Shown in pieces: positions 4,910 to 29,223 of a DNA stretch of 64,000 nt. The stretch lies in the NCBI RefSeq assembly GCF_013019105.1, contig NZ_BLTE01000001.1, positions 434,001-498,000 of the forward strand. The letters are read 5' to 3'. The stretch comes from Fundidesulfovibrio magnetotacticus. GTDB taxonomy: Bacteria; Desulfobacterota; Desulfovibrionia; Desulfovibrionales; Desulfovibrionaceae. How positions within the stretch are numbered: position 1 is the first letter of the stretch; every line of letters begins with the position of its first letter. The notes below the pieces were generated by a model. That model did not search any database and was not told the DNA's origin. It saw only the letters and a program-made list of their open reading frames with translations. The position numbers and the translations under genes are program-made.

Positions 4910-4928
4910 CCACGAAGGCCACAACGTC

Positions 4929-14704: not shown

Positions 14705-14736
14705 GGCCGCCTCGCGTGTCCTGCAGGGCGCGGCCG

Positions 14737-15651
14737 TCAGCCGACGGCCAGGCTGCCCCGGAAGGTCGAAAGGTCGGTGATGCCCAGGGCCTGGGCGGCC
14801 AGGGGCAGTTCCTCGGCCAGTCGGAAGGAGAAATCCGGCCGCAGGAAGTTGGCCGTGCCCACCTGCACGGCGCCGGCCCCCACCAGGATGAATTCCAGGG
14901 CGTCCGTGGCCGAACTGATGCCGCCCATGCCCACCACGGGAATGGACACCGCTCGGCTCACCTGCCACACGCAGCGCAGGGCCACCGGCTTGATGGCCGG
15001 CCCCGACAGGCCGCCCACCACGTTGGCCAGGCGGGGCTTGCGGGTGCGCACGTCCACGGCCATGCCCGTGAGCGTGTTGATGAGCGAGATCGCGTCCGCC
15101 CCCGCGCCCTCCACGGCCTTGGCCACGGCCACGATGTCCGTGACGTTGGGCGAGAGCTTCACCATCACGGGCTTGGACCCCGCGCGCGCCTTCACCGCCT
15201 CGGTGACGCGCGCCGCCAGGGCCGGATCCTGCCCGAAGAGCACGCCGCCCGCCTGCACGTTGGGGCAGGAGATGTTCACCTCCAGGGCCGCCACGCCCTC
15301 GGCGGAGGCCAGGAGCCCGGCCAATTCGGCGAACTCCAGGGTGTCGCAGGCGTAGAGGTTGGCCACCACGGGGGTCTCGCGCCAGGGCAGCCCCGGCAGC
15401 ATCGACTTGAGGAAGCGCTCGGCCCCGCAGTTCTGCAGGCCGATGGCGTTGAGCATGCCCGAGGGGGTCTCGGCCAGGCGCGGCACGGGGTTGCCCTCGC
15501 GGGGCTTGAGCGAAAGCCCCTTGACCACGATGCCCCCCAGGGAGCGCAGGTCGCCGTAGGGGGCGAACTCCAGGCCGTAGCCGAAGGTGCCCGAGGCGGT
15601 CATGACGGGGTTCTTGAGGGTCAGCCCCCCCAGGTCCACGCGAAGATCCAT
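14737..15651 (-). CDS. pyrD: Dihydroorotate dehydrogenase, catalytic subunit (class 1B)
   Basis: PyrD oxidises dihydroorotate to orotate in pyrimidine synthesis, with FMN. The 304-residue protein has the family landmarks MTASGTFGYG, KGLSLKPREGNP, NISCPN and the glycine-rich phosphate site GMGGISSATDALEF. The catalytic base of class 1B enzymes is a Cys, and the NISCPN segment carries it. The gene follows pyrK by 94 bases on the same strand, as expected for the NAD-linked heterotetrameric type. The start is supported by GGAG six bases upstream. Confidence 0.95.
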   Translation of the reverse strand: MDLRVDLGGLTLKNPVMTASGTFGYGLEFAPYGDLRSLGGIVVKGLSLKPREGNPVPRLAETPSGMLNAIGLQNCGAERFLKSMLPGLPWRETPVVANLYACDTLEFAELAGLLASAEGVAALEVNISCPNVQAGGVLFGQDPALAARVTEAVKARAGSKPVMVKLSPNVTDIVAVAKAVEGAGADAISLINTLTGMAVDVRTRKPRLANVVGGLSGPAIKPVALRCVWQVSRAVSIPVVGMGGISSATDALEFILVGAGAVQVGTANFLRPDFSFRLAEELPLAAQALGITDLSTFRGSLAVG

Positions 15652-15745
15652 CGAAAACTCCGGTCGGCGGCGGCGCTCGGGCCGCGCCGGTGCGTCACGT
15701 TGTTGGCGCTTGGCGCCGGGAGGCCCCGCAAAGGCCCGGCCCAGC

Positions 15746-16525
15746 CTAGAGCGTCACCTTGTCGGCCCAGAACACCGGCCCCTTCACGCAGGTCTGCACG
15801 CGGTGTCCCTCGGGGTTCTCCGCCACGCAGCCCAGGCACGCGCCCACGCCGCAGGCCATGCGGTTCTCCAGCGACACCTGGGCGCGCACGCCGTGCTTGT
15901 CCGCCAGGTTCTTCACCGAGCGCAGAAGCGGCGTGGGGCCGCAAGCCAGCACCAGTCCCCCGGCGTGTTCCGCGATGCGCTTCTCCAGCAGCTCCACGAA
16001 GCGCGGGATGTCCTCGGGGGTTTTGTCCTGGAAGGACTCCACGGCGATCATGGCCCCCAGTTCGTCGTAGGGATAGCAGGAGCGCGGCGGACGGTGCCCG
16101 AAGAGCAGCGCGAGCTTCCCCGGGGTGGGGTGCGTGGCCGCATATTCCACGAAAGGCGCGATGCCGATGCCGCCGCCCACCAACAGTGTTGGCGCGCCGG
16201 GCTCCACGGCGAAGCCCTGGCCCAGAGGCCCCCACACCGTGACGGGCTCGCCCGGGGCGAGGCGCGTGAAGGCCGCCGTGCCGCGCCCGGCCACGAGGAA
16301 GTGGAAGACGATGCGGTCGTCCAGGGCTCGGGAGATGGAAAGGGGCCTGGCCCAGAGGGGGTCAAACCCCCAGGCGGGCGGACGCAGCATGGCGAACTGG
16401 CCGGGTTTAACCCCCGTGAATCCGGGGTTTTCCAGTTCCAGTCGCCAAAGCCCGTTGGCCAGGCCCTCCGGCCCGGCTGGTGCGACGGCCAGCACGGGCA
16501 CGTCGCGGCAGTGTCGATGCGGCAT
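15746..16525 (-). CDS. pyrK: Dihydroorotate dehydrogenase electron-transfer subunit
   Basis: PyrK carries FAD and a [2Fe-2S] cluster and passes electrons from PyrD to NAD. The FAD motif is RPLSIS, the nucleotide-binding loop is LLVGGGIGIAPF, and the cluster ligands are in CGVGACLGC plus a later Cys (VQTC). The ATG at 16525 is preferred because AGGAG lies six bases before it. An in-frame ATG at 16543 would add six residues but has no such site. It is the first gene of the pyrK-pyrD unit and is divergent from the CRP-FliG-like gene. Confidence 0.93.
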   Translation of the reverse strand: MPHRHCRDVPVLAVAPAGPEGLANGLWRLELENPGFTGVKPGQFAMLRPPAWGFDPLWARPLSISRALDDRIVFHFLVAGRGTAAFTRLAPGEPVTVWGPLGQGFAVEPGAPTLLVGGGIGIAPFVEYAATHPTPGKLALLFGHRPPRSCYPYDELGAMIAVESFQDKTPEDIPRFVELLEKRIAEHAGGLVLACGPTPLLRSVKNLADKHGVRAQVSLENRMACGVGACLGCVAENPEGHRVQTCVKGPVFWADKVTL

Positions 16526-16531
16526 GTTTCG

Positions 16532-16536
16532 CTCCT
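16532..16536 (-). promoter_or_regulatory. Ribosome binding site that decides the pyrK start
   Basis: On the minus strand this is AGGAG, followed by six bases and the ATG at 16525. It favours the internal ATG over the upstream ATG at 16543. Confidence 0.7.
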
Positions 16537-16599
16537 GCACCATACCTTAGCCCCCCGTAAGGCCGTTGTAAATGTTTTCTCCCCGAAGCGCGCTCCGCC

Positions 16600-16628
16600 T
16601 TGTTTTCCCGGGACTTTACGTATAAGAT
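16600..16628 (+). promoter_or_regulatory. Candidate sigma-70 promoter of the CRP-FliG-like/motAB operon
   Basis: TTGTTT (16600-16605) and TAAGAT (16623-16628) are separated by 17 bases in an AT-richer pocket of the 197-base gap between divergent genes. No sigma-28 or sigma-54 type flagellar promoter was recognised here. Transcription start is untested. Confidence 0.4.
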
Positions 16629-16723
16629 TGACAAGAGAGGGGAAACCGCGCCTTCCGCCCGGCAGGCCGGGTTCGCGGCGTCTCCACGGGGCCGTCGCGG
16701 CCTCCAGGAAGTGCGGAGCATCC

Positions 16724-17920
16724 ATGATGAAGAAAGCGGACGTGGGGGACAAGACCAAGACCTTCCACAAGGGACAGGCCATCTACAAGGAGGGCCAGTC
16801 CAGCGGAGAGGCCTACATCATCACCCAGGGGGCCGTCGGGCTCTACAGGCTCGCTGGCAACAAGCGCGTGACCCTGGCGCTTTTGCGCCCTGGCCAGATC
16901 TTCGGCGAGATGGGCGTGATCACCGGCGAGAAGCGCACCTCCGAGGCCCTGGCCCTGGACTATACCGAGGTCATCGTCCTGGATCAGACGCTCTTGCACA
17001 CGCTGCTGCTCAAGAGCCCCCGGCCGGTGCAGATCATCACCTCCTACCTGGTGGAGCGCGTGCGCGCCCTCAACGCCCTGGTGCCGGAGCGTTCCAGCTC
17101 CAACACCTTCGCCTCGGTGTGTTCCGTCATCCTCCTGGCCTGGCGCGCCGCGGCCAGGAGCGGACCCAAGAGCGAGGCCGCCCAGATATCCACCGTGGAG
17201 CTCTCGCGCACCATCAAGGACATCCTGCTCATCACCCAGACCGAGATCGACGAGGTGCTCGAAAAGCTCGCGCGCGTGCACATCGTGGACATCGTGGACG
17301 TGAAAGGCACCTACTACCGCACCGATCCGCTCCTGGGCACCAAGAAGAAGTCCGGCGAGTTCGTCAAGGAGCGCCTGCTCTCCATCCCCGACGCCGAACG
17401 CTTCGCCCGCGTCTCGCGCAACATGGCCCAGGACAACCCCGACGCCAACGGCGCGGAGCTCGAATTCATCGACCTGGACGACTTCGCCCGGGCAGTGGAC
17501 GCCCAGCCCGAGACCATCCTCAAAAAGATCGCCTACGGCGAGGTTCCGCCCGCGCTCTTCCACTTCCACAAGCGCCAGGCCCTGGCCTTCGCCGCTTCCA
17601 AGGGGCAGGACTACTTCCAGCGCGCCAAGCGCCCGCGCCTGAAGGTGGAGGACCTCCAAAACGTCGACGACGTGGTCGGCGTGGACAACGCCACCCTGGA
17701 GGAGGCTCTCTCGCGCCTGGGCTTCTACAAGGTGGGCGTGCTGGCGGCCCTGGCTGGGGACGAGGCCCGCCAGAAGATCTACGCCAACCTCTCCAAGAAG
17801 ATCGCCTCCGTGGTCAGGGAGGAGGTCCAGCGCATGCCCGAGCCCGATCCGGGCGAAGCCTCCGACATCGAGGACGAACTCATCGGGCTCATCAAATCCA
17901 TCAAGGGGATCAGCGGGTGA
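16724..17920 (+). CDS. CRP-like cyclic-nucleotide-binding protein with FliG-like C-terminal domain
   Basis: The 398-residue protein has a cyclic-nucleotide-binding fold at about 10-120, with the phosphate-binding cassette FGEMGVITGEKRTSEALA (60-77) including the conserved Arg. A winged-helix-like segment at about 155-195 (ELSRTIKDILLITQTEID, then LARVHIVDIVDVKGTYY) resembles the DNA-binding part of CRP proteins. The C-terminal 100 residues look like the FliG motor-switch domain: LKVEDLQNVDDV, EEALSRLGFYKVGVLAALAG, EARQKIYANLSKKIASVVREE, IEDELIGLIKSIK. FliG normally reads close to KIFKNMSKRAAALLKDE in the third of these. GGAG lies five bases before the first ATG. The stop overlaps the motA start by four bases. 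A nucleotide-gated rotor or stator regulator is the natural inference; a plain transcription factor is the alternative. Confidence 0.75.
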   Translation: MMKKADVGDKTKTFHKGQAIYKEGQSSGEAYIITQGAVGLYRLAGNKRVTLALLRPGQIFGEMGVITGEKRTSEALALDYTEVIVLDQTLLHTLLLKSPRPVQIITSYLVERVRALNALVPERSSSNTFASVCSVILLAWRAAARSGPKSEAAQISTVELSRTIKDILLITQTEIDEVLEKLARVHIVDIVDVKGTYYRTDPLLGTKKKSGEFVKERLLSIPDAERFARVSRNMAQDNPDANGAELEFIDLDDFARAVDAQPETILKKIAYGEVPPALFHFHKRQALAFAASKGQDYFQRAKRPRLKVEDLQNVDDVVGVDNATLEEALSRLGFYKVGVLAALAGDEARQKIYANLSKKIASVVREEVQRMPEPDPGEASDIEDELIGLIKSIKGISG

Positions 17921-18696
17921 ACGTCGCCACCGTCATCGGGTTCGTAGCCGGCATCATCATCCTGGGCACGGCCACCTATTTCGCCACGGACTCCGCCCGG
18001 GTGTTCCTGAACCTTCCGGGCCTGGCCATCGTGCTGGGCGGCACGCTGGCCTCCACCTTCATCTGCTTCCCGCTCAAGGAAGTGGCCCGCGTGTTCAGCA
18101 TCTTCCTCACGGCCCTCAAGCGCGAGGAGCTGCCCATCGGCAACTACATCGAGTCCATCGTGGACATCGCCCGCGAGGCCTCCATGCGCGGCAAGGTCCA
18201 CCTGGAGAAGACCCTGCCCGGCATCGAGAACGAATTCCTCCAGAACGCCCTGCAGATGCTCGTGGACGGCTACTCCCGCGAGGAGATGAAGGAGATTCTG
18301 GAAACGCGCATCGAGCAGACCTACCAGCAGGAGCTCTCCAGCGCGGGCATCTACCGCACCATGGCCAAGCTCTCGCCCGCCTACGGGCTGATCGGCACGC
18401 TCATCGGCTTCATCGGCCTCATGCAGGCCATGGGCGGCGGCCAGCTTGCCTCCCTGGGCCAGCACATGGCCGTGGCCCTCACCACCACGCTCTACGGCAT
18501 CCTGCTCTCCAACCTCTTCTTCCTGCCCATCGCCGTGAAGGTGGAAAAGCGCATCGAGGAACGGGTGCTGCTCATGTGCGTCATCCGCGACGGCGTGCTC
18601 TTCATCAAGGACAAGACCCCCGCCGCCATTGTCTACGACAAGCTCAAGGCCTACCTGCCGCCCAGGCGCTGGGCCTCCATCGGCATCCGCCCCTAG
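17917..18696 (+). CDS. motA: Flagellar motor stator protein MotA
   Basis: MotA and MotB form the ion-conducting stator of the flagellar motor. The 259-residue product has four membrane helices (about 3-20, 32-50, 148-168, 182-204). The first pair is followed by a large cytoplasmic loop containing GYSREEMKEILETRI. The conserved prolines are present in helix 3 (LSPAYGLIGTLIGF) and at the end of helix 4 (FFLPIAVKVEKRIEE). The GTG start overlaps the upstream TGA (GTGA), so it is coupled to the CRP-FliG-like gene. Confidence 0.95.
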   Translation: MNVATVIGFVAGIIILGTATYFATDSARVFLNLPGLAIVLGGTLASTFICFPLKEVARVFSIFLTALKREELPIGNYIESIVDIAREASMRGKVHLEKTLPGIENEFLQNALQMLVDGYSREEMKEILETRIEQTYQQELSSAGIYRTMAKLSPAYGLIGTLIGFIGLMQAMGGGQLASLGQHMAVALTTTLYGILLSNLFFLPIAVKVEKRIEERVLLMCVIRDGVLFIKDKTPAAIVYDKLKAYLPPRRWASIGIRP

Positions 18697-18705
18697 GCAG
18701 CCGCC

Positions 18706-19542
18706 ATGCTCATGTTCCAGAAACTGCGCGGCCGCTTCAAGGACGAGGACGAGGGCACCTGGTTCATCTCCCTGGCCGACCTGCTCACCCTGCTCCTATG
18801 CTTCTTCGTGGTGATGCTCTCGGTCTCCAGCGTGGACCAGGACCGCTACCGCAAGGTGGCCCAGTCCATGGAAGCCGCCCTGGCCGCCGAAAAGGCCAAG
18901 CGCCAGGCCCTGGCGGAGCGCCAGCCCGACCGCCCCATGGGCAGTTCCCTGCACCCGGAGCCCGTGCCCGACGGGCAGTACTATCCCGTGATCCAGCCGC
19001 CCCTGCCGCCCCAGGTCTACCAGTCCGTGGGCGACCCCGTGGCCGGTCCCGGGCAAGGCGACGGCCCCGGACCCACCGCCCGCCTGAAAACCCTGGACGA
19101 AATCGAATCCGAGATGTCCGTGCGCTTCGCCAAGGACCCCGCGGGCATCCAGGTGGAGAAGCGCCAGGGCGGCGTGGCCATCACCCTCAAGGGCGCGGTG
19201 CTCTTCCAGAGCGGCAGCGCCGACCTCGCGCCCTCGTCGCGCCCCTACCTGGACTCCATCGCCCAGTCGCTGCGCGCCACGCCCTACCGCGTCACGGTGG
19301 AGGGCCACACGGACAACCTGCCCATCCAGTCGTTCCTGTTCCCCTCCAACTGGGAGCTTTCGGCGGCGCGGGCCTCCCGCGTGGCCCGCTACCTCATCGA
19401 CCACGGCGTGCCCCGCGATCGCATCCAGATCGCGGGGTTCGCCGAAACGCGCCCCGTGGCCCCCAACGAGAACGCCCAGGGTCAGCCCCTGCCCGACAAC
19501 CAGGCCCGCAATCGCCGCGTGGTCGTGCAGATCAACCCTTGA
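18706..19542 (+). CDS. motB: Flagellar motor stator protein MotB
   Basis: The single membrane helix (about 21-41) holds the essential ion-binding Asp in SLADLLTLLLCFFVVMLS (Asp25). A linker rich in Pro and Gly (about 65-125) leads to the OmpA/MotB peptidoglycan-binding domain (about 150-275: VLFQSGSADL, VEGHTDNLPI, NWELSAARA, NRRVVVQI). It starts nine bases after motA. The TTGA overlap at its end leads into the TPR gene. Ion type (proton or sodium) cannot be read safely from the sequence. Confidence 0.95.
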   Translation: MLMFQKLRGRFKDEDEGTWFISLADLLTLLLCFFVVMLSVSSVDQDRYRKVAQSMEAALAAEKAKRQALAERQPDRPMGSSLHPEPVPDGQYYPVIQPPLPPQVYQSVGDPVAGPGQGDGPGPTARLKTLDEIESEMSVRFAKDPAGIQVEKRQGGVAITLKGAVLFQSGSADLAPSSRPYLDSIAQSLRATPYRVTVEGHTDNLPIQSFLFPSNWELSAARASRVARYLIDHGVPRDRIQIAGFAETRPVAPNENAQGQPLPDNQARNRRVVVQINP

Positions 19543-20351
19543 ACGCCTGCTCCGACACTCTCGACTGCGGGCCGGAAACCGCCCCGCCCAAGCTCAGGGG
19601 CATCTTTTCCACGCCCGGCATACCGGGCGACCCGGCCAGCGGCGAGGCCAAGCGCTTCTGGTTCGCCCGCGAACAGGAGGACGGCGTGATCAGCGCCCAG
19701 CTCCTGGACGAACACCACCTGCCCACCCAGCGACAAATCATCGAACCGCGCGAGAGCTTCCTGGAACGCTTCACCCTGGAGCCGGACCTGGGCTACCGCC
19801 TGCTCACCCAGCGAGTGCTCATCGGCGACCACTTCCGCAACCAGGGCAAGAACGTCGAGGCCAAGATCGAGTACCAGAAGGTGCTGCGCATCGACGAGGA
19901 GAACATCCGGGGCACCTTCGGCCTGGGTCTGGCTTATCTGGCCCTCAACCAGCTCGAAAAGGGCCGCTACGCCTTCGAGAAGCTCGTGAAGCTCGACGAG
20001 AGCTTCGCCGCCGAACACAAGCACCTCTTCAACGACTTCGGCATCGCCCTGCGCAAGCGCGGCCTCTTCGAGGAGGCCCTGGCCTTCTACCACCGGGCCA
20101 AGGCCCTGTGCGCCGACGACGAACACCTGCTCCTGAACATCGCCCGGGCCTGGTTCGAGAAGGGCGACACGGAACACGCCTACCGGGAACTCGGCAACTG
20201 CCTGGACCTGGACCCGCACTTCCGCGAGGCCCTGGCCTTCCTCCACTATCTGCGCAAGAACAACATCCTCCCCAAAGACCCGGAGCTGCGCGCCCACTTC
20301 GACCGCGAAGCCCTCAAACGCAGCGAACTGGCTGGCCTGGCCGGGGAGTGA
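19539..20351 (+). CDS. TPR-repeat protein, last gene of the motAB operon
   Basis: The frame opens at a TTG that overlaps the motB stop (TTGA), giving 270 residues by coupled initiation. An internal GTG at 19686 is a weaker alternative. Residues about 85-245 form TPR helices (QGKNVEAKIEYQKVLRID, FNDFGIALRKRGLFEEALA, DDEHLLLNIARAWFEKGD). The N-terminal 80 residues include an FWFAREQEDGVISAQLLDEH motif that I do not recognise. There is no signal peptide, so it is cytoplasmic. The repeat region is clearly related to the receiver/TPR protein at 23733-24833. It is probably a partner for the CRP-FliG-like protein or the stator, but this is inference. Confidence 0.8.
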   Translation: MNACSDTLDCGPETAPPKLRGIFSTPGIPGDPASGEAKRFWFAREQEDGVISAQLLDEHHLPTQRQIIEPRESFLERFTLEPDLGYRLLTQRVLIGDHFRNQGKNVEAKIEYQKVLRIDEENIRGTFGLGLAYLALNQLEKGRYAFEKLVKLDESFAAEHKHLFNDFGIALRKRGLFEEALAFYHRAKALCADDEHLLLNIARAWFEKGDTEHAYRELGNCLDLDPHFREALAFLHYLRKNNILPKDPELRAHFDREALKRSELAGLAGE

Positions 20352-20579
20352 AGGCGTGATCCGCTACGCCATGCGCCACGAGGATTGCGTCGGAGTCTCC
20401 CCCGCCCCGACGACCGCGACGTCCACGGCCACATGCCGGGGCTTGGCGACGTGGCGGGCACTCGCAAATACCTATGTCCCCCGCTCGGATATGGATTCCT
20501 CCTTCCTGAAAGATGGAGCAGGTCACCGTGGAATACGGACGGTTGGACGGCAAGCCCAAACGTTTGCAGTGGAGCGGTC

Positions 20580-21857
20580 TCACTTTTCGGCGGCTTGCCA
20601 AGATGGATTCACTATACCACTCGCGATCAGCCTGTCGGACATATGTCCAGCGATAACACTTGCGAACCATGCCGTATAGTGACAGTGATCGACATATATA
20701 TTGCGTTTTATATCGCGCTGAATGTCGGCAAGGGAGAACACGTCATCGAATGAATGCTCGACTGAGGCCAGCTCATTCAACAGCATAGGATATCCGTCCC
20801 CAGCCCTGTCTTGGCCCATAAACCCACCCGAATGCTTAAGCATCCGAAATGGTTCATGGTATTGCAAATCGTATCCGTACGTCGGTACGGGCTGAATAAA
20901 AAATGAAACCTTGACCCCGAAGACTGTTGAAACAGCACGGATCTCCTGATGATTGTGAAGTAACTCATCGACAATCATTCTATTAGTAGCAGCTGAATTT
21001 TTTACATTGTCGCAGTGGCTCTCGCCGGTCGAACTTATATTTTCATAATAAGAAAGCATCAATGAGGCCAAGCGAAAAAGCGGGAGGGTCGTAAAAAATT
21101 TTCTCAAAGCACCCCATTGCGGAGAAGCAGCCTGCGCATTATTTAACATCTCACGGGCGATACGATTCTTTTCGAGCAATGCAAGATGAAAACAACCGCG
21201 CGTTACAGGCTGCCTGTCATAAAAGTAAAAATCATTCAATCCATGAAAAAAGATTGCCAGGTCGGGACGATGCCCCTTTAGCAACAGTGTGGAGTGCAGG
21301 ATTTTTTCTTGAGTTGAAAAATATGCCGAACGTCCAAAATTGTAAACACAAACATTCTTTTCAAGCTTCTCTGACAATAGACCTTGCAAGTAACTCGCGA
21401 CACTGTGCGAATCTGCACCCGGGTGAATCGTCGTCGACCCCCCGTAAATAAATATATTGAAGTTTGCGGGGTCCAAAGGCCAAGGACCCTGATTACTGAC
21501 ATGACGAAAGCCGTGCTCAGACATGTTGTAATACTTACCAGAAGCTGGAGCATGCTTGAATTCGGTAAAAGACTCGTAAACCGTGTCGAGAGCGCGTCGA
21601 TCCTGTTCTTCCATGTATTCTGCATACTCATCACGAGACATCGAATACCACCTGGAGGCACTTTCACGAAACTGCTCTTCGCGATACAAGTTATAATACC
21701 TGTAATCTGTCTTTTTTTTCAACAAACAAGACTGTACATATCCAAATACATAAAAAGCTGCCAAGTTCAGCAACACAAACAACAAAGACAGATTTACAGC
21801 ATAGAGAGACACCTCTGAGAACAGCGCATAGTAGGCCTGCAGCATGTCACTGTGCAT
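20580..21857 (-). CDS. Membrane-anchored SGNH/GDSL-like hydrolase
   Basis: The 425-residue protein has one or two N-terminal hydrophobic helices (about 10-45), then a domain with SGNH landmarks. These are GGSTT (Ser131) for block I, NFGRSAYFS (Gly165) for block II, GLND (Asn198) for block III, and DHCHYT near the C terminus for the Asp/His pair. SGNH enzymes act as esterases or as O-acetyl transferases/esterases on glycans. The start at ATG 21857 is chosen because an upstream frame (to 21989) would cover the preceding small gene and its ribosome site. It is the last gene of the island operon and its codon use is AT-rich. Modification of a surface glycan is plausible; the substrate is unknown. 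Confidence 0.7.
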   Translation of the reverse strand: MHSDMLQAYYALFSEVSLYAVNLSLLFVLLNLAAFYVFGYVQSCLLKKKTDYRYYNLYREEQFRESASRWYSMSRDEYAEYMEEQDRRALDTVYESFTEFKHAPASGKYYNMSEHGFRHVSNQGPWPLDPANFNIFIYGGSTTIHPGADSHSVASYLQGLLSEKLEKNVCVYNFGRSAYFSTQEKILHSTLLLKGHRPDLAIFFHGLNDFYFYDRQPVTRGCFHLALLEKNRIAREMLNNAQAASPQWGALRKFFTTLPLFRLASLMLSYYENISSTGESHCDNVKNSAATNRMIVDELLHNHQEIRAVSTVFGVKVSFFIQPVPTYGYDLQYHEPFRMLKHSGGFMGQDRAGDGYPMLLNELASVEHSFDDVFSLADIQRDIKRNIYVDHCHYTAWFASVIAGHMSDRLIASGIVNPSWQAAEK

Positions 21858-21861
21858 CGCA

Positions 21862-21975
21862 TCACCAGAGAGGGTAAATTTTGGATGGATCGTCGGCCTT
21901 CTTCTTTTTGTTATTCGAATAGGCAGCAATGCAAACAACGCCCAGGACCACAACAAGCCCGACCACGTATAACAT
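21862..21975 (-). CDS. Small membrane protein, 37 residues
   Basis: This short gene begins at an ATG with AAGGAG five bases upstream, one of the best ribosome sites in the island. The product is MLYVVGLVVVLGVVCIAAY followed by SNNKKKKADDPSK and ends with YPLW. It has one membrane helix (about 2-19), then a tetra-lysine cytoplasmic edge, as in many true small membrane proteins. It sits between the methyltransferase fusion (37 bases upstream) and the SGNH gene (four bases downstream). Function is unknown; it may be a partner of the SGNH protein. Confidence 0.6.
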   Translation of the reverse strand: MLYVVGLVVVLGVVCIAAYSNNKKKKADDPSKIYPLW

Positions 21976-21980
21976 AGCAA

Positions 21981-21986
21981 CTCCTT
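21981..21986 (-). promoter_or_regulatory. Ribosome binding site of the 37-residue gene
   Basis: The minus strand reads AAGGAG, five bases before ATG 21975. It decides that the small frame, and not the longer overlapping frame of the SGNH gene, is started here. Confidence 0.65.
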
Positions 21987-22012
21987 CAAAAAAAATTATC
22001 GACCGGGGCTTG

Positions 22013-23137
22013 TCATTGCTTAGAAAAGATCAAGCATGCCACATCGTGCTCCTCGGAAATTGACACCGGCACGACCGGAAATGCCGCCACTGACTGATTG
22101 CAATAATCGCTACCCCAGACATTGAAGTACTCTTCAGCCACAAGGCGCCAGCCGTCATTGCTTATCCACCTGTCTACATCAACCCTTGCAAATATTCGGG
22201 TCAACGCTCCGGGCCAAGGCAAATCACCACCGCAATGCTCGTAAATATTATTTACAGGACAGTTGTCGCTATACGGGAAAGTTACAATCAAATGTCCGCC
22301 ACTGCGAAGCAACCTGTACATATTCGACATGGCCGCGTCACAGTCGAAAATGTGTTCCAGCGTGCTAACACAGACAACAATATCAAACTGTGTATCGAAT
22401 TTCTTCGTAACGATATCCCCAAGCTCCACATAAAAACATGTGTTGAATTGCTCGCTCGCGTCCAAGGCGACAACTTCAAAACCACATGCATGCAACAAAT
22501 TAGGCAAGGATGTGCGTGACGTGCCGACATCCAGCAAGCGACGCCCGGGAATCGTCCTTAGCTTATTCATCACAAACGAATACTCAGCAAGCCGTTCTGA
22601 CGGTTCAATTTGCTTACTACTCTCACGTTTAAGGTACATCTCTTTGAAAGACGCGAAAAAATCTTTCAACATCGCATAGCTTTCTTCTCGAATCAGTGGA
22701 TTCTTCAAATACTGAACATCCTCGGCGTCTGTGTACATATAGGCAATTGAACACATCCCGTTGCCAGGAGTAAAGTAACTTGACACAATAGCAGCATAAT
22801 GCTTGGGAGCCGTAGCGATGAACACCAAATCAACACCAGCAAATGCATTTTTATGGAGAGGATTGATATACGGTATGCGGTCCATTGGCGTGCTTGGAGC
22901 CCTCGTGTCCGCGACCCCAACCACTTGAATGCCCTCACACTCCCTAAGAAGACTGTATGCAATATGCCCACTCCCCCCCGCTCCATAGATACAAATCCTG
23001 ACAGGCGAAGCGAGTTCCTGCGTTACGTTATGCGCAAATCCCTCGAACAACTTCCGGGCACGATCAATATTACCCAGAAAGTCAATTGCTATATTTTCAA
23101 ACCATTCATACGGAATACCGACACAATAAGTACCCAT
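22013..23137 (-). CDS. Rossmann domain fused to a class I SAM-dependent methyltransferase
   Basis: The 374-residue protein has two parts. Residues about 45-165 form a nucleotide-binding fold beginning ICIYGAGGSGHIAYSLL, with VVGVADTRAP after the second strand, like NAD- or sugar-nucleotide-handling domains. Residues about 185-350 are a methyltransferase: GRRLLDVGTSRTSLPNLL (motif I), VVALDAS, FDIVVCVSTLEHIFD and a GGHLIVTFPYSD strand. The ATG has GGAGG seven bases upstream. It is the first gene of the island operon. Fusion proteins of this style occur in surface-glycan gene clusters, so sugar methylation is a fair inference. Acceptor and direction of use are not known. Confidence 0.75.
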   Translation of the reverse strand: MGTYCVGIPYEWFENIAIDFLGNIDRARKLFEGFAHNVTQELASPVRICIYGAGGSGHIAYSLLRECEGIQVVGVADTRAPSTPMDRIPYINPLHKNAFAGVDLVFIATAPKHYAAIVSSYFTPGNGMCSIAYMYTDAEDVQYLKNPLIREESYAMLKDFFASFKEMYLKRESSKQIEPSERLAEYSFVMNKLRTIPGRRLLDVGTSRTSLPNLLHACGFEVVALDASEQFNTCFYVELGDIVTKKFDTQFDIVVCVSTLEHIFDCDAAMSNMYRLLRSGGHLIVTFPYSDNCPVNNIYEHCGGDLPWPGALTRIFARVDVDRWISNDGWRLVAEEYFNVWGSDYCNQSVAAFPVVPVSISEEHDVACLIFSKQ

Positions 23138-23732
23138 CTGGTCCTCCAGCTCTTTATGATATTACACCACCAAGGCCTTCATTCCGAAGCAACCATGAAA
23201 AATATGAAAATTCAGCTGATCGAGGAGGCTCGCGACGTCGTACGCTGGTTTCTGCTCTCATCCATGTCAATTCCGCACTTTAACGGGGCGTGTCAGTATT
23301 GGAACCGACAAACGCCGACGAGGTCTCAACAAGCTGTCCGCCATCATCCTAGCCGCATATAGGACGTAGCTGTCGCCTTCGCAAGGACGTTGCAACTGCT
23401 TGGCATAACACCACATTGCCAGTTGTTTAACCGTTCGCATTCCGAGGACGACCGATTCGTCCTCCAAGATGGAGTCAGCCCCGTGATATGCTCGGCTCTG
23501 TTCGGACCAGGTGGAACTAAGAAAGGTGGCTCCCGACGACGGATGAGGGCCATTGGGAAATCATGATTCCTGGATGAGCAGATCATGGGCATCCTGCGTA
23601 AAACTGAACGCTAATCGAAGTCTCAGGCAAACCGTCGGTTAGCCGGACATGGCATACGAAGCGGCTGCCCTGTAATCAAAGGACATCCTTGTGCCAACAT
23701 GGGGCAACTTCCTCCCTCGGAGCATAGCCCGC
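23138..23732. other. 595-base stretch without a convincing gene (island edge)
   Basis: Both strands were read. Only short frames without ribosome sites are present. One frame on the minus strand (23267-23467) encodes about 66 residues with no recognised motif and may be a worn gene fragment. GC rises gradually toward the resident genome on the right. The promoter of the island operon should lie in the AT-rich first 80 bases, but no clear -35/-10 pair was singled out. Confidence 0.5.
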
Positions 23733-24833
23733 TCAAATATCCTGCATGCTGTCCAGCGTGCCCGTTGAGGGCGGGCCGCCGGTCATGCCCGCGCCCTTGG
23801 GGGCCTTGAACTCGCGGTTGAAGATCTTCAGGTGGAGCTTCAGCCCTTCGGTGAAGTTGGGGTTGATCCACAGGGCCTTCAAGAGCGAATCCTGCGCGCC
23901 TTTGGCGTCGCCCATGAAGTGCATGGCCTTGGCCATGTTGAAGTGGATGTTCTCGTCGTCGGGCGTCAGCTCCAGGGCCTGGCGGTAGGCGTGCAGCGCC
24001 CCGGGCAGGTCGCCCGCCTTGCGCAGCCGCACGCCCAGCGAGTTGAAGGGGTTGGGGCTCGCGGCGTCGTACTTGAGCACCTCGATGAACAGCTCCTTGG
24101 TCTCCTCCAGGCGGTTGAAGTGCGCGAAGGTCTCGGCCGCGCGCTGCAGGTAGGTCTTGTAGCCCTCCAGATCGCCCTTGCCCTTGTAGGCCTCGGCAAG
24201 CCCCTTGTAGGCCTCCGCGAAGAGTTCGTTGATCTTCACGGCCTTCTTGAACGAGAGGATCGCCTGACCGTACTTCTGCTTCATCAGGTACTTGCAGCCC
24301 ATGTCGTAGTACTTCTGGGCCTGGTTGTCCTCGCTGACCAGCTCCTCGAAGGCCTCGATGGCGTCCTCGAAATGCCCGGCGGCCAGCAGACGCTTGCCCT
24401 CCTGCAACTGGGCCGTCTCGATCTCCACCAGCTTGTCCACCTTGAGCGCGCGCAGCATGTGCCGCTGGAACGTCTCCAGCGAATAGGGGCGCAGCACGTA
24501 GCCGTCCACGCCCGCCGCGATGGCCTCCAGCACCCTGTCCTTCTGGCCCTCCTGCGTCACCATCACCACGGGCGTGTCCTTGAGGTTCATGTTCAGGCGC
24601 ATGAGCCGCAGGAACTTGAGCCCGTCCATGTCGGAAAGGGCGGTGTCGAGCACCACGAGGTCCACGTCCTGGACGCCCAGGAAGTCGATGGCCTCGGAAC
24701 CGGACGTGAAGGACTGGATCATGGACGCCTTGAGCTGCTTCAGGCACTGCCTGTCGCGGCGGGCGTTCTCCTCGTTGCCGGAGACGATCACGGTCACGTT
24801 CAGTCGGACGGGGGAAGGCGCGCTCTGGGCCAC
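23733..24833 (-). CDS. Degenerate receiver domain fused to TPR repeats
   Basis: The 366-residue product starts at a GTG with GGAG upstream. Residues about 12-130 form a CheY-like receiver: the phosphorylatable Asp is in LVVLDTALSDMDG and the switch Thr in VVMVTQEG. The acidic pair is missing (SGNEENARRD), and the usual Lys-Pro reads Arg-Pro (YVLRPYS). Residues about 150-340 are TPR helices (KYYDMGCKYLMKQKYGQA, LFAEAYKGLAEAYKGKGD, FNSLGVRLRKAGDLPGALHA). The repeat block resembles that of the TPR protein at 19539-20351, including FN-x2-G-x2-LRK and DDE-x4-N-x-A. It may work as a phosphorylation-poor scaffold in the motility system. The gene is followed closely upstream by an HD-domain gene (39-base gap, same strand). 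Confidence 0.85.
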   Translation of the reverse strand: MAQSAPSPVRLNVTVIVSGNEENARRDRQCLKQLKASMIQSFTSGSEAIDFLGVQDVDLVVLDTALSDMDGLKFLRLMRLNMNLKDTPVVMVTQEGQKDRVLEAIAAGVDGYVLRPYSLETFQRHMLRALKVDKLVEIETAQLQEGKRLLAAGHFEDAIEAFEELVSEDNQAQKYYDMGCKYLMKQKYGQAILSFKKAVKINELFAEAYKGLAEAYKGKGDLEGYKTYLQRAAETFAHFNRLEETKELFIEVLKYDAASPNPFNSLGVRLRKAGDLPGALHAYRQALELTPDDENIHFNMAKAMHFMGDAKGAQDSLLKALWINPNFTEGLKLHLKIFNREFKAPKGAGMTGGPPSTGTLDSMQDI

Positions 24834-24872
24834 GCGGGCTCCGGGGGATGAAGGGTTGGACCGGGGAATAGT

Positions 24873-25631
24873 CTACGTGTCCAGGACAGTATAAATCCTG
24901 TCGCGCAGGGGCGTCAACCGGGGGTCCCGAGGGAGGAGCCCCAAAAGCTCGTCCGCGTGGCCGCGCAAACGGAAGGCCCGGCGTGAAGCGGCGAAGTTGA
25001 GGTCGTGCACCCAGCTGAGCAGCAGGAGCACGAAGTCGTTGCAGGTGCGCATGGCCGAGTAGTCCCCGATGCGCCCGGCCATGATCTGCTCCACGATGGC
25101 GGGGGAGAAGCGCTCGGGGTCCTCCTCCAGGTGGAGCACCACCACGTCGGAGCGCTGGCCGCCGGGGCGCAGGTGGTCGAGCATGATGCGCACGATGTCG
25201 AGCTTGTCGGCGTCGCGCACGATGCGCGCCAGCAGCGCCAGTTCCGGGGACGCGAAGGGGGGCAGCGCCCGCCGGTTGTGCAGGGCCACCGCGCCGCGCA
25301 CCAGGGCGCGGACGCGCGCGTCCCGCACGTCCGGGACGCCCTCGACGCGCAATGTGCGTGCGCCCAGGAGCCCGTGGTCCACGCTCTGGGAGTCGCGAAA
25401 GGTCTTGTAGGCGCGGTACTGGGGGAAGCGCCCGGCGTCGTGCAGGAGCGCCGCCAGGTGCGCGGCGCGCTCCGCGGCCGCATCCAGGCCGAGGGTGGGC
25501 GTGATGGCCCGGGCCTCGTCCAGCACCTTCAGGGAGTGCTCGCGCTTGAGTTGCAGGTGGTGGTCGTCCTCGGGGTTCCCGGTCAGGAACCCGGCGACGT
25601 ACTCCTCGAACCAGCGGATGTGGGCGTGCAT
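24873..25631 (-). CDS. HD-domain phosphohydrolase
   Basis: The 252-residue protein carries an HD metal site: REHSLKV for the first His, LLHDAGRFPQY for the His-Asp pair, and a later Asp in RDADKLDIVRI. Such proteins hydrolyse nucleotides or phospho-esters. The cassette is the plain HD type, not HD-GYP, because no GYP motif is present. It is soluble with no other domain. Substrate unknown. It sits head-to-head with the CheY-like gene (129-base gap) and runs in the same direction as the receiver/TPR gene. Confidence 0.85.
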   Translation of the reverse strand: MHAHIRWFEEYVAGFLTGNPEDDHHLQLKREHSLKVLDEARAITPTLGLDAAAERAAHLAALLHDAGRFPQYRAYKTFRDSQSVDHGLLGARTLRVEGVPDVRDARVRALVRGAVALHNRRALPPFASPELALLARIVRDADKLDIVRIMLDHLRPGGQRSDVVVLHLEEDPERFSPAIVEQIMAGRIGDYSAMRTCNDFVLLLLSWVHDLNFAASRRAFRLRGHADELLGLLPRDPRLTPLRDRIYTVLDT

Positions 25632-25760
25632 CCCGAGACCTCCAGCGCGCGGGGCGCGTCCGGTTCGTGCCCTACGAGCGCCGTGGAATCAAGCATTATC
25701 CCTTGTCTCCTCGTTGCATTGGGACTAAAAGAGAGGAAAGTCCTGATTTGGAGGTTCTCA

Positions 25761-26159
25761 ATGAAGGCGCTCGTGGTGGAAGACGATTTCGCAAGCAGGA
25801 AACTGTTGCAAAAAATACTCGCCCCGTACGGTGATGCCGACATCGCCGTGAACGGCCTGGAAGCCATCGACGCCTTCAAAAGGGCTCTCGATGAGGAAGC
25901 CCCCTACGACCTCATCTGCATGGACATCATGATGCCCGAAATGGACGGCCAGGAGGCCCTGAAGAAGATTCGCGCCATCGAACGCGAACGCAAGATCCCT
26001 CCGCTGCAGGAAGCCAAGGTGATCATGACCACGGCACTGGACGACCCCAAGAACGTGGTGGAGGCCTACTACAAGGGCGGGGCCACATCCTACGTGCCCA
26101 AACCCATCGACAAACAAATGCTCCTGCACCTGCTCAAGAACCTCGGGCTGATCTGCTGA
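25761..26159 (+). CDS. Single-domain CheY-like response regulator
   Basis: The 132-residue product is a complete receiver: acidic pair in VVEDD, phosphorylation site in CMDIMMPEMDG, switch Thr in IMTTAL and Lys in VPKPID. There is no output domain. The ATG has GGAGG seven bases upstream. A candidate promoter TTGTCT-17-TAAAAG lies before it at about 25702-25730. Its stop overlaps the next start by one base. With no kinase adjacent, its partner may be one of the orphan kinases elsewhere in the window. Confidence 0.93.
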   Translation: MKALVVEDDFASRKLLQKILAPYGDADIAVNGLEAIDAFKRALDEEAPYDLICMDIMMPEMDGQEALKKIRAIERERKIPPLQEAKVIMTTALDDPKNVVEAYYKGGATSYVPKPIDKQMLLHLLKNLGLIC

Positions 26160-26860
26160 TGGACCTCCTCCCGCTCCTCGGCGCGTTTCCGGCCCAGGCT
26201 GCGCAGGACGTGCTGGGCCAGCAGCCCTCCCGGGCCCTGATGGGCCTTCTGGACGTCATCTTCATCGCTCTGGCGGGCTGGGTGGCCTGGCGGGTGATCT
26301 CCAACCTCTCCAAGCGCCGCCCCCCCGACGAAGACAACACCTACGACGTCACCCCCCGTGACGACGAAGGCGATTCCGGCATGGACCAGCGCAGCCGCCG
26401 CGCCCAGGCGGCCTGGGAATACCTGACCGGCCAGCAGGGGCGCGACCTGCGCCAGCCCCCCGCCCAGGACGAACCCCACGAGCCCGACGCCCCCGGGACC
26501 TTCAACCAGGCCGAATTCCTGCGCGGGGCCAAGGTGATGTTCGGGCGCATCAAGCAGTCCTGGGCCATGCGCAACCTCTCGGACCTGCGCCAGTTCGCGG
26601 CCCCGGACATGATGGCCCGCTTCGAGCGCTGGGCCGCCGAGCGTCCGGACCGTCAGGCCGTCTCGGTGCTGCTGGTGGAGGCCCAGGTGCTGGAGGTGCA
26701 ACGCGAGGCGGGACGCACCGTGGTGGAAGTGGCCTACCAGGCCACCGTGGCCGACGACCCCAGCGCCAGCCGCCAGGTGAACGAGGTGTGGCGCTTCTCC
26801 CGAGAGGAGAACGTGGCCGACGCCAAGTGGCTCCTGGAAGACATGGCCCAGCGCCAGTAA
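26159..26860 (+). CDS. Tim44-like domain membrane protein
   Basis: The 233-residue protein has one membrane helix at about 27-47 (RALMGLLDVIFIALAGWVAW). A charged linker follows, then a Tim44-like alpha/beta fold (about 115-230: FNQAEFLRGAKVMFGRIKQSW, DLRQFAAPDMMARF, VEVAYQATVAD, EVWRFSREEN). The family is known from mitochondrial import and from bacterial membrane proteins of unclear function. It is coupled to the response regulator through a TGATG overlap. Confidence 0.85.
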   Translation: MDLLPLLGAFPAQAAQDVLGQQPSRALMGLLDVIFIALAGWVAWRVISNLSKRRPPDEDNTYDVTPRDDEGDSGMDQRSRRAQAAWEYLTGQQGRDLRQPPAQDEPHEPDAPGTFNQAEFLRGAKVMFGRIKQSWAMRNLSDLRQFAAPDMMARFERWAAERPDRQAVSVLLVEAQVLEVQREAGRTVVEVAYQATVADDPSASRQVNEVWRFSREENVADAKWLLEDMAQRQ

Positions 26861-26903
26861 GCGCCCGCGCCCGGACGCCTCCGTCCCTACGGCTTGGAAG
26901 CGT

Positions 26904-26932
26904 TCCGGGCCGCCATCAGGCTGCGGCCCGGA
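26904..26932. terminator. Hairpin between convergent genes
   Basis: A 10-base stem (TCCGGGCCGC / GCGGCCCGGA) closes a nine-base loop between the Tim44-like gene and the RDD gene. There is no clear run of T on either side, so termination is likely but not certain. Confidence 0.45.
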
Positions 26933-26963
26933 TTCTCAACGCGCCCCCTTTCCGGCCCGACGC

Positions 26964-27587
26964 CTAGCGGTAGACCACGAGGGTGGACGCCATCTTGTCG
27001 TGCAGGCCCTGTTTTTTCGCGGTGAAGATGATCATGATGTATCCGAACAGCAGCAGCAAAGCGGAAAGCATCTTCGAGAAATAGCGGCCGGTCGCCTGAC
27101 CGAAAGAGATCCTCCGACCCTGCAGATCGGTGACCATGACGCCCACGGCCCGTTTGCCGAAAGTGCCCTGGGACGACGAACTTTCCTGCAGTGCGAAGTA
27201 GAGCCAAGAAAGAACTATGGACAGCAGGGTCAGGAAGTTCTCGTTGTCGCCATTGGAGACAACCGCGCTCAGCACTCCCAACGCGACCATCGCCACACTG
27301 CATATGAGCACGTCGATCAGGTAGGCCCCGATCCTGATCCAGGATGCATAGCGAGGCTGCCCACCGGTCTGTCCCGAAACCCCGGCTGCTGGACCGGGGC
27401 TCCCGGCAGGCTGCCGCGTGACGCCGACATTGACCGATGCCTGGGCCGTGACACCCACCCCACCCGGGGGCCGACCTGGAACTCCCACCCCCCCGACCGG
27501 CTGGGCGGAACTGCCCAGCGGTTGGCCGCAGGCCTGGCAGTACTTAGACAAATCGACGTTGTTCTTGCCGCACTTCGCACAAACCAT
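26964..27587 (-). CDS. RDD-family membrane protein with N-terminal zinc ribbon
   Basis: The 207-residue product starts with a zinc ribbon (CAKCG...CQACG, residues 3-21). A Gly/Val/Pro-rich linker (about 25-78) follows, then an RDD domain (about 79-205) with three hydrophobic helices and the family features WIRIGAYLIDVLI, GTFGKRAVGVMVTD and KKQGLHDKMASTLVV. AAGGAG lies eight bases before the ATG. RDD proteins are often linked to transport; the actual role is unknown. A second, broken copy lies just upstream at 27846-28124. Confidence 0.9.
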   Translation of the reverse strand: MVCAKCGKNNVDLSKYCQACGQPLGSSAQPVGGVGVPGRPPGGVGVTAQASVNVGVTRQPAGSPGPAAGVSGQTGGQPRYASWIRIGAYLIDVLICSVAMVALGVLSAVVSNGDNENFLTLLSIVLSWLYFALQESSSSQGTFGKRAVGVMVTDLQGRRISFGQATGRYFSKMLSALLLLFGYIMIIFTAKKQGLHDKMASTLVVYR

Positions 27588-27845
27588 TTCCCTTTCTCCT
27601 TTTGCACTCCGCCCCCGCGCACAAAAGGCACCATGCCCTCAGGCAACAGGAAGCACGGGACCTGCCAAGTCAGGTTAGCGAAATCATAAGGACGAGTCCA
27701 TACAGAACCATCGTGATCAATGACGAATCCACGACAGCTCCGTCTGCCCGGATACTGAAGGCAGGAGGGAACAGGCGTCGGCCGCACTAGCGGACGCCTT
27801 GCGCGGCAACGTTCCGATTGGCTGCGGCCAACGGTCACGAAACCC

Positions 27846-28124
27846 TCAACGACAAACCACCACGGTCCCGGCCAGCAGGTCGTGCAGGCCCTGGCGCTTC
27901 TTCGTGAAGAGGATCATGGCGTAGCCCAGCAGGAGCAGCCCGCCCGAGAGCAGCTTGGCGGCGTAGCGCCCCGTGGCCCGGCCGAAGCTGATGCGGCGGC
28001 CCTCCAGGTCCATCACCTTGAGGCCCATGATCCGCTTGCCCAGGGTGGCCTGGACCGGGGAACTCTCCTGGAGCGCGTAATAGAGCCAGACCACCGCGTT
28101 GGCCATGAGCGCCGCCACCGCGTC
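27846..28124 (-). pseudogene. 5'-truncated RDD-domain gene
   Basis: The last 93 residues closely parallel the intact RDD neighbour (VVWLYYALQESSPVQATLGK against WLYFALQESSSSQGTFGK, and KKRQGLHDLLAGTVVV at the end). The zinc ribbon, the linker and the first helix with its Arg-Asp motif are missing. The frame is open up to 28253, but the extra 43 residues are unlike any RDD start and overlap the terminator of the next operon. A deletion of the 5' half is the simplest reading. The 258 bases between the two RDD genes hold nothing recognised. Confidence 0.6.
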
Positions 28125-28224
28125 GCCTGACCCGCCGCGCGGCCGGGAACTTCCCGGACTCTGCCGTGCGCTAGCAGAGCCCCCGTGCGAAGTCCATCGG
28201 CCGTGCGCGGAGCGCGGAGCCCGG

Positions 28225-28268
28225 AAAATGAAAACGGCCGGACAGGGACCCATGCCCCCGTCCGGCCG
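28225..28268 (-). terminator. Rho-independent terminator of the ABC-F/nudix/metF/asd/aminotransferase operon
   Basis: Nine-base arms CGGCCGGAC / GTCCGGCCG (28260-28268 with 28235-28243) are followed on the minus strand by TTTTCATTTT. It begins 16 bases past the stop of the aminotransferase gene. Confidence 0.8.
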
Positions 28269-28283
28269 ACGCGATGCGGTCGT

Positions 28284-29222
28284 CTAGAGGGACACGCCGT
28301 TTTGGGCCAGGTCCTTCTTCAAGAGTTCCAGGAGCCTGCGGCTCACCGGTCCGGGAGTTCCGCCGCCCACGGGGCGGCCGTCGTACTCCACGATGGAGAG
28401 GCACTGGGCCGTGGTGCCCAGGATGAGCATCTCCCGGGCCTCGCGGATGTCGTCCTCGGTGATGGACTTGTAACAGTGGCTGATTTCGCCCCGGGCCAGC
28501 TCCAGCACGCGCAGGAGCGTGGTGCCCGAGAGGGCGTTGTCCAGCCTGGGCACGGTGATGCAGCCGTCCTTGTCCACCAGGGCCACGTTCTCGGTGGCCC
28601 CCTCGGCCAGGAAGCCGCGCGCGTCGAAGCACACGGGGAAGTCCTTGCCTTTGGCCAGGGCCTCCTTCTTCATGAGCACGTTGGGCAGATAGTCGATGCT
28701 CTTGATGGTGGCCAGGTAGCTCTGCTTGGCCGGGATGGACGTGCGGAAGGCCGTGACGCCCTTCTGGTAGAAGGCGTCGGGCTTGGGCGCATACTCGTAG
28801 GCCGCCACGTAGAGGCTGGGCTCGGGGCACTCGGAGGGGTCCAGCCCGAAGCCGCCGGGGCCGCGCCCAAGGAGCATGCGGAAGAGCCCGTTGGGCGTGC
28901 CCGCCGCGCGCCCGGTGGCCAGCACGATCTCGCGCACCGCCTCCCAGGGGCAGGGGGGCTCGAGCCCGATGGCCTGGCCGGAGCGGCCCATGCGGGCCAG
29001 GTGCTCGTCCAGGAGGTAGACCTTGGAGTCCACCCACTTGATGGTCTCGAAGACGCCGTCGCCCCGGTGGACCAGATGGTCGTCCCAGGGCATGAGCATG
29101 AGGGCCGGGTCCTTGCAGACGGCCCCCACGCGGTGTTCGTAGAAGGCCAGCACCTGGCCGGAGCCGGGGCGCGGGGCCGCGAGCATCCGGTCCAGGTAGG
29201 CCTTGGAGTCGAGGATATCCAC
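28284..29222 (-). CDS. Class IV PLP aminotransferase (branched-chain or D-amino-acid type)
   Basis: The 312-residue enzyme shows the class IV landmarks: HRGDGVFETIKW, the PLP lysine in SYLATIKSIDYLPN, EGATENVALV and LSGTTLLRV. Branched-chain aminotransferases, D-amino-acid transaminases and 4-amino-4-deoxychorismate lyases share this fold, and the exact substrate cannot be fixed. The GTG start lies one base after the asd stop. In this amino-acid operon a branched-chain or related role is likely, but D-alanine type activity is possible. Confidence 0.85.
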   Translation of the reverse strand: MDILDSKAYLDRMLAAPRPGSGQVLAFYEHRVGAVCKDPALMLMPWDDHLVHRGDGVFETIKWVDSKVYLLDEHLARMGRSGQAIGLEPPCPWEAVREIVLATGRAAGTPNGLFRMLLGRGPGGFGLDPSECPEPSLYVAAYEYAPKPDAFYQKGVTAFRTSIPAKQSYLATIKSIDYLPNVLMKKEALAKGKDFPVCFDARGFLAEGATENVALVDKDGCITVPRLDNALSGTTLLRVLELARGEISHCYKSITEDDIREAREMLILGTTAQCLSIVEYDGRPVGGGTPGPVSRRLLELLKKDLAQNGVSL

Positions 29223-29223
29223 G

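Follow-up and report, generated by a model that had tools for sequence, protein, structure and literature searches.

How did a stretch of low GC content come to lie beside the motor genes of Fundidesulfovibrio magnetotacticus, and what might its genes do? The stretch falls within a 64-kb window, the whole 64,000 nucleotides analysed (positions 434,001 to 498,000 of contig NZ_BLTE01000001.1), to which all coordinates below refer unless a locus is named. It carries genes for a methyltransferase, a membrane microprotein and an SGNH-fold enzyme, set between two genes for tetratricopeptide repeat (TPR) proteins. We propose, with a probability of roughly 0.55, that these genes form a horizontally acquired glycan-decoration operon occupying a variable slot by the motor-TPR genes. 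The strengths that we attach to the operon in its slot, to glycan decoration, to protein pairing, to an acyl-bearing tail and to a flagellin target are judgements, not computed values.

In 500-base windows, GC content is 0.43–0.50 over ~20500–23500, against 0.60–0.73 in the flanks (14000–20500 and 23750–30000), confirming that the low-GC stretch is genuine and sharply bounded. Its coding part spans only 20580–23137 and comprises three genes in one minus-strand operon, transcribed in the order methyltransferase (22013–23137), microprotein (21862–21975) and SGNH (20580–21857), with ribosome-binding sites of the GGAGG/AAGGAG type preceding the first two. GC content is 0.468 in the methyltransferase gene and 0.449 in the SGNH gene, and GC at third codon positions (GC3) is 0.496 for the methyltransferase, 0.579 for the microprotein and 0.477 for the SGNH gene. 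Relative to a first background of 40 window genes longer than 450 bases (0.927 ± 0.025, lowest 0.848), the island lies 17–18 standard deviations (sd) away, a figure obtained with a gene caller that rewards G or C at third positions and misses the island genes. It is replaced here by a fairer control, in which a caller with amino-acid scoring only recovers both long island genes and gives 0.923 ± 0.039 over 39 genes (lowest 0.755), placing these two genes ~11 sd below the mean. The codon adaptation index (CAI), trained on the first 40-gene set, is 0.15–0.22 for the island genes against a mean of 0.70. The initial annotation had claimed a low-GC three-gene island from the letters alone; the GC windows, GC3 (0.48–0.58 against ~0.92) and CAI, computed gene by gene, bear it out, and its limits fit. 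Promoter and terminator scans gave chance level, and no Rfam match reached the gathering score in 18000–26000.

The flanking genes are shared with the six congeners. The left TPR protein, encoded after the motor genes (19539–20351, plus strand), is 71–75% identical in all six congeners, and the response regulator-TPR protein on the right (23733–24833, minus strand) is 81–87% identical in the same six. Between them, every congener carries a gene for an azoreductase-like protein of ~208 aa, whose copy at L042 belongs to the Pfam family Flavodoxin_2; the label azoR and the names of its congener neighbours are our assumption from reading by eye. Only G004 has azoR alone in the slot. The other five congeners add further genes (all read by eye): presumably an alpha/beta-hydrolase-like gene in G001 and G003, a protein with a PEP-CTERM-like end plus a partial second copy of azoR in G002 and G006, and a histidine kinase-like gene in G005. 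In G011, which belongs to another genus (L048), ~120 bases, without azoR, separate the aligned portions of the left and right TPR genes. Because the TPR genes are already apart in 6/6 congeners and ~120 bases apart in G011, the slot between these two convergent genes is variable and was already in use; in this genome the island fills it. The azoreductase-like gene is lost from this genome: the island gap holds no azoR remnant at E ≤ 1, and the best match elsewhere in the genome is merely 37% over 54 aa. The initial annotation was right that related TPR genes stand on the two sides (35% identity over 97 aa), whereas its idea that the insertion had freshly split a motility neighbourhood fails, as azoR already separates these genes in all six congeners. 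The empty-site comparison that it proposed had a divided outcome, since none of the six congeners has the island genes at the site but the slot is not empty, holding azoR in the congeners and ~120 bases in G011.

Distribution of the genes points the same way as composition. Among 347 genomes of the order, with this genome counted in gene totals, the SGNH protein is matched in six and the methyltransferase in five at E ≤ 1e-8, neither of them in any of the six congeners. At E ≤ 1e-3, the methyltransferase matches 15 genomes of 39 relatives, the non-self matches being short or generic methyltransferase stretches, and two congeners give short generic matches only. At E ≤ 1e-3, the island gap has no DNA in common with the gap of any of the six congeners; the left junction (20352–20579, non-coding, GC 0.64 overall, dropping to ~0.53–0.57 towards the island) shares no DNA with the congeners' slot, and for the right junction (23138–23732, non-coding, GC 0.53) no similarity was found in the congener gaps, the rest of this genome or plasmids. 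The foreign origin suggested by the initial annotation is upheld by composition, by the absence of methyltransferase and SGNH matches at E ≤ 1e-8 from all six congeners and by the lack of shared gap DNA, and we regard an acquired foreign operon in a variable slot as very probable. The operon is present in a single genome of the genus, a count that by itself would also fit descent from the ancestor of the genus, with loss from six congeners and low GC as a local oddity. This history is nevertheless highly improbable in view of the GC3 deficit of ~11 sd in the fairer control, the azoreductase-like gene common to the six congeners at the slot and the native GC of a paralogue in this same genome. 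That paralogue, a second SGNH on contig C13, is 38% identical to the island protein and, like it, is missing from all six congeners.

Traces of the route of entry were sought at the ends of the island. Attachment-site repeats, for which the initial annotation had proposed a search of the flanks, did not materialize: 20340–23760 contains imperfect pairs of 12–15 nt only, and no tRNA occurs in the 64-kb window. The three island genes include no integrase or transposase in Pfam, and seven fragments of the non-coding ends (X at stops) gave no transposase match in Pfam, so that no clear mark of an integrative island was found. A candidate insertion-sequence remnant near 23565, resembling the start of an IS3 OrfA, was rejected, as it matched no Pfam transposase family and no genome or plasmid DNA. 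The right junction matches its own genome, besides itself, over only 17–25 bases at E ≥ 0.1, and plasmids not at all. Phage origin finds no support, with no SGNH or methyltransferase relative among viral contigs; neither does plasmid origin, since plasmids gave only partial matches, one to the SGNH (33%) and seven to the methyltransferase.

The microprotein and the SGNH enzyme occur together wherever their subfamily was found. The island microprotein (37 aa) comprises a transmembrane (TM) segment, a basic stem and the C-terminal tail KIYPLW, and its gene is followed after 4 bases by the start of the SGNH gene. All seven SGNHs of the subfamily, from five genomes, are preceded by a small TM protein 1 to 171 bases upstream; the seven microproteins measure 37–50 aa, share the TM and basic stem, and end in [KDN][IL]YP[LVF][FW]. 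A maximum-likelihood tree built from 38 SGNHs places the seven Desulfovibrionaceae proteins in one group (99/95), within which the island SGNH pairs with one of two copies from genome G575 (100/98). The family label of this subfamily is by inference, via locus L102 (Desulfovibrio sp.), whose DNA agrees fully with that of the G650 locus over 2 kb; L102 and L169 represent a single record and were counted once. A microprotein profile gave seven strong matches in the 347 genomes (65–74 bits), exactly the seven SGNH partners, followed by 14 listed matches, one each in 14 further genomes, at 18.8–20.9 bits and mostly over the TM part only. As the profile was built from these seven, their own scores prove nothing, and it is the absence of an eighth copy that counts: among the sampled genomes of the order, no microprotein copy was found away from an SGNH and no subfamily SGNH lacks one. 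G587 has a weaker, partial match to the SGNH (E 1.2e-11) but none to the microprotein, and falls outside the seven.

Conservation within the microprotein is concentrated in its tail. Pairwise identity among the seven sequences is 67% over the last six columns but 20% over the TM columns, and 5000 random draws, each of six gap-free columns, never reached the tail value. Below the Pfam cut-off, weak FeoB_associated matches for two microproteins (0.025 and 0.005) are what we take for TM-lysine likeness, and the DUF5989 family (PF19451) is matched neither by the island microprotein at E ≤ 1 nor by that of G614 at 0.01. The one-to-one pairing of SGNH and microprotein in the sampled genomes is well supported and new; the open-access literature searched contained no description of the microprotein and no paper on DUF5989. 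It is quite probable that the two proteins function as a pair.

Relatives of the operon suggest the kind of pathway involved. In G575, the closest genome, an SGNH 46% identical to that of the island, a second SGNH and a homologous methyltransferase lie in one glycan cluster, which holds two microprotein-SGNH pairs. At the C13 locus of this genome, an MptE-like gene stands directly upstream of the paralogous microprotein-SGNH pair, together with two epimerases, several methyltransferases and a radical SAM/SPASM gene. Scanning GTDB genomes with an 8-row alignment returned 55 loci of SGNH relatives, 23–38% identical and spread over many phyla. Related loci carry genes for CTP_transf_3, DegT, TylF, radical SAM-B12, formyltransferase-GNAT, FkbM, PfkB-CTP_transf and UDP-galactopyranose mutase proteins. 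Judged by gene content, these loci look like glycan-building clusters, and some of their genes would suit nonulosonic acids. The position of the relatives in glycan clusters agrees with the surface-modification type assigned in the initial annotation, and decoration of a glycan is probably the role of the operon.

For the two longer proteins, the assignments differ in detail. The methyltransferase gene encodes a 374-aa protein with a class I S-adenosylmethionine methyltransferase domain (PF13489, 44 bits, cut-off 27) and an N-terminus whose PglD_N match lies below its cut-off. The confidence of its structure model is low (pLDDT 69, pTM 0.51), so that fold matches show just 'methyltransferase'. 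The SGNH protein (425 aa, N-terminal TM helix) retains intact GGST, GLND and DxxH motifs; the Ser, Gly, Asn and His of the SGNH/GDSL superfamily are conserved with the Asp-x-x-His block, and the fold match agrees, at a PF13472 score of 27.7 bits that is sub-threshold (cut-off 32.9). Because the catalytic Ser, Asn, Asp and His are invariant in 38/38 aligned SGNH rows, it is likely to be an active enzyme. Its model (pLDDT 88.5) best matches CgnD (Z 24.7 over 265 residues), followed by carbohydrate esterases at Z up to 16.6, among them acetyl xylan esterases, a CE3 esterase and a sialic acid esterase (Z 13.6). PatB and DltD are among the Foldseek matches and fall outside the 50 matches listed in a second comparison, which is no evidence against them. 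Catalytic residues and folds do not tell an esterase from a transferase here. We know of no microprotein partner for CgnD, a hydrolase of crocagin biosynthesis that is the closest structural likeness of the SGNH model yet shares only 18% identity with it and releases a peptide core. PMC10070186 describes CgnD as a slow hydrolase of the peptide pathway that releases the peptide.

We suggest that the methyltransferase would methylate a sugar or a sugar-bound group, while the SGNH enzyme and the microprotein would assemble in the membrane as a single unit, with the conserved [IL]-Y-P-x-[FW] tail reaching into the SGNH active site. Least certain is a further step, in which the tail Tyr would deliver an acyl group to the serine of the SGNH enzyme, after the pattern of DltX-DltD and PatA-PatB. 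Such a relay would have no membrane-bound O-acyltransferase (MBOAT) next to it, and the charges would put it on the cytoplasmic side of the membrane, the side on which flagellin is glycosylated by Maf-type enzymes. As described in PMC12148441, the Tyr of a C-terminal FXYXXF hexapeptide in MBOAT-SGNH systems carries the acyl group from the MBOAT to the SGNH serine. The same source (PMC12148441, 2025) gives the PatA hexapeptide as FIYANF, places the motif of the Dlt pathway on a separate microprotein, DltX, and says that other MBOAT pathways lack one. The island-type tail has Ile or Leu at −4, Tyr at −3 and Phe or Trp at 0 in all seven cases, in the register of FXYXXF. It resembles DltX/DltD in placing a small single-TM protein, with Tyr at −3 and a C-terminal aromatic residue, beside an SGNH-fold protein, and PatA/PatB and other MBOAT-SGNH O-acetyltransferases in combining the SGNH catalytic set with a C-terminal tyrosine hexapeptide. 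Unlike PatA, it carries the hexapeptide-like tail on a separate protein of 37–50 aa, with no adjacent MBOAT; unlike DltX, it has no DltB-type MBOAT found nearby, lacks Phe at −5 and has charges that predict the opposite orientation. DltX/DltD moreover serve teichoic acid D-alanylation, whereas the island is of glycan-cluster type in a Gram-negative family. An acyl-carrying role for the Tyr is a hypothesis that we judge less likely than not.

Several observations weigh against the proposed reading. The nearest solved structure, CgnD, is a hydrolase and not an acyltransferase. Strict FXYXXF is absent, position −5 being D, N or K and never F in the seven tails. No MBOAT was found in the 64-kb window or in 23 loci (L084, L166, L168, L169 and L170 included) by tblastn with the four MBOATs of this genome at E ≤ 1e-5, a search that a diverged MBOAT or one beyond ~10 kb would escape. 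Lysines and arginines (K/R) are more numerous after the TM than before it in 7/7 SGNHs and 7/7 microproteins; the excess is just one residue in the G576 and G650 SGNHs, and the pattern is mixed in the other 31 SGNHs. The seven pairs, from five genomes, share descent and so are not seven independent cases. The methyltransferase-first order was not seen in the other loci read, the methyltransferase following the SGNH gene in G575. Among the glycan loci read, the MptE-like gene appears at C13 only, and no mobility gene or attachment site accounts for the arrival of the operon.

By the K/R counts, a rule of thumb, the tail and the SGNH domain are predicted to be cytoplasmic. The tail of DltX lies outside the cytoplasm, opposite to this prediction for the island microprotein. 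A cytoplasmic orientation would also suit another reading, in which the SGNH enzyme removes acyl groups from a glycan as an O-acyl esterase and the microprotein is only a membrane tether or stabiliser, its tail docking on the enzyme and its Tyr carrying no acyl group; the mostly esterase folds after CgnD and the fact that no MBOAT was found nearby favour this too. The exact register of the Tyr and the C-terminal aromatic residue in 7/7 microproteins, while the rest diverges, speaks against it, as a plain tether would not obviously require Tyr at −3, and PatB and DltD also figure among the Foldseek matches. We consider such an esterase somewhat unlikely.

Elsewhere, this genome encodes four MBOATs. 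Three end in FIYFQF, FIYFSF and FIYAQF, and the genes after them are of AlgX type or DUF459/GDSL. These three (L197, L198 and L199, on contigs C15, C3 and C6 of this genome, G000) are ordinary MBOAT-SGNH pairs. The fourth, on contig C17, has no C-terminal motif and adjoins an AMP-ligase gene, a 74-aa open reading frame (ORF), a 422-aa gene and an 82-aa ORF ending in TEVYYAQF; the 422-aa gene and the 74-aa ORF have no Pfam match. The 74-aa ORF may encode a carrier protein, and the 82-aa ORF could be the DltX of the C17 MBOAT. The locus is Dlt-like in a Gram-negative genome (L200:270-518 and 4265-5482). With an MBOAT lacking its own motif in the genome, the island tail might work as DltX does, outside the cytoplasm, its microprotein loaded in trans by a distant MBOAT and the charge topology misleading. 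This arrangement is improbable: the C17 MBOAT already has an adjoining 82-aa ORF with a tyrosine tail, the other three bear FIYxxF tails of their own ahead of AlgX-type or DUF459/GDSL genes, and the K/R counts point to the other face.

A second group of microproteins lies near relatives of the island SGNH. A small-ORF scan of 71 sources used a wider tail pattern, and minus-strand ORFs in L106 and L125 were dropped as chance. Microproteins ending FIY[TSA][LF]F, an exact FXYXXF, occur in nine loci (L105:6795-6953, L106, L110, L116, L141, L147, L148, L152 and L153); the L105 protein, the sole one of the nine tested, matches DUF5989 (PF19451) in Pfam at 5e-26. The island microprotein, by contrast, has no Pfam match to DUF5989 and an opposite charge pattern. 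A carbamoyltransferase gene accompanies seven of the nine, one of them cut by a contig end, with the Pfam family confirmed for two. None was found in the Desulfovibrionaceae loci searched. L101 carries a carbamoyltransferase gene, and L103 a part of one, without such a microprotein, so that the gene is not always accompanied by one. It is possible that DUF5989-type microproteins are outward-facing carbamoyl or acyl shuttles. At its most extended, our proposal would be a new class of MBOAT-free acyl relay in Desulfovibrionaceae, in which an inward-pointing microprotein tail, acyl-loaded by another enzyme, would serve an SGNH transferase bound to the membrane. Sugars in activated or lipid-linked form would be decorated by this transferase while still in the cytoplasm, ahead of their transfer to the flagellum or the cell surface, with DUF5989 as an outward cousin, possibly for carbamoyl groups. 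We offer this version as speculative and rather unlikely.

Whether the decorated target could be flagellin bears on the motor genes next door. Flagellin glycosylation islands, with Maf and CMP-nonulosonate genes, resemble the system in that the paralogous C13 pair stands beside an MptE-like gene and a related locus has CTP_transf_3 and DegT; the island itself differs in having no sugar-synthesis or glycosyltransferase gene and none of the Maf or nonulosonate kind. We take the MptE-like domain to be that of Maf proteins, and 'Maf' for the C13 gene is our own label. No MptE-like gene was found among the genes called in L166–L172. With this gene seen at C13 only, flagellin is a possible but doubtful target. 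Of the role offered by the initial annotation, glycan modification stands, while the flagellar part is weak, its grounds being that the C13 paralogue has an MptE-like gene next to it and that the island adjoins motor genes.

Upstream of the left TPR gene lie a MotB gene (18706–19542, plus strand; MotB_plug and OmpA in Pfam) and a gene at 17917–18696 that, by eye, we take to be MotA. In two congeners, the variable slot also shows a secreted-looking protein with a PEP-CTERM-like end, recognized by eye (L043:9684-10409 and L047:10055-10828), fragments of a second azoR copy (L043:9015-9083 and L047:9450-9524) and near-palindromes of 33–38 nt (GGGCCTCTTGAA...TTCAAGAGGCCC; L043:8181-8218 and 9159-9196; L047:8479-8511 and 9570-9602).

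On a modest reading, the locus shows a cassette for glycan decoration, foreign in composition, and a slot of variable content beside motor genes in one genus. If the fuller proposal is true, the tyrosine acyl-shuttle chemistry of teichoic acid D-alanylation and peptidoglycan acetylation would also be at work in stand-alone microproteins of glycan clusters that have no MBOAT next to them, and unannotated ORFs of 37–50 aa, together with DUF5989, would gain a testable job.

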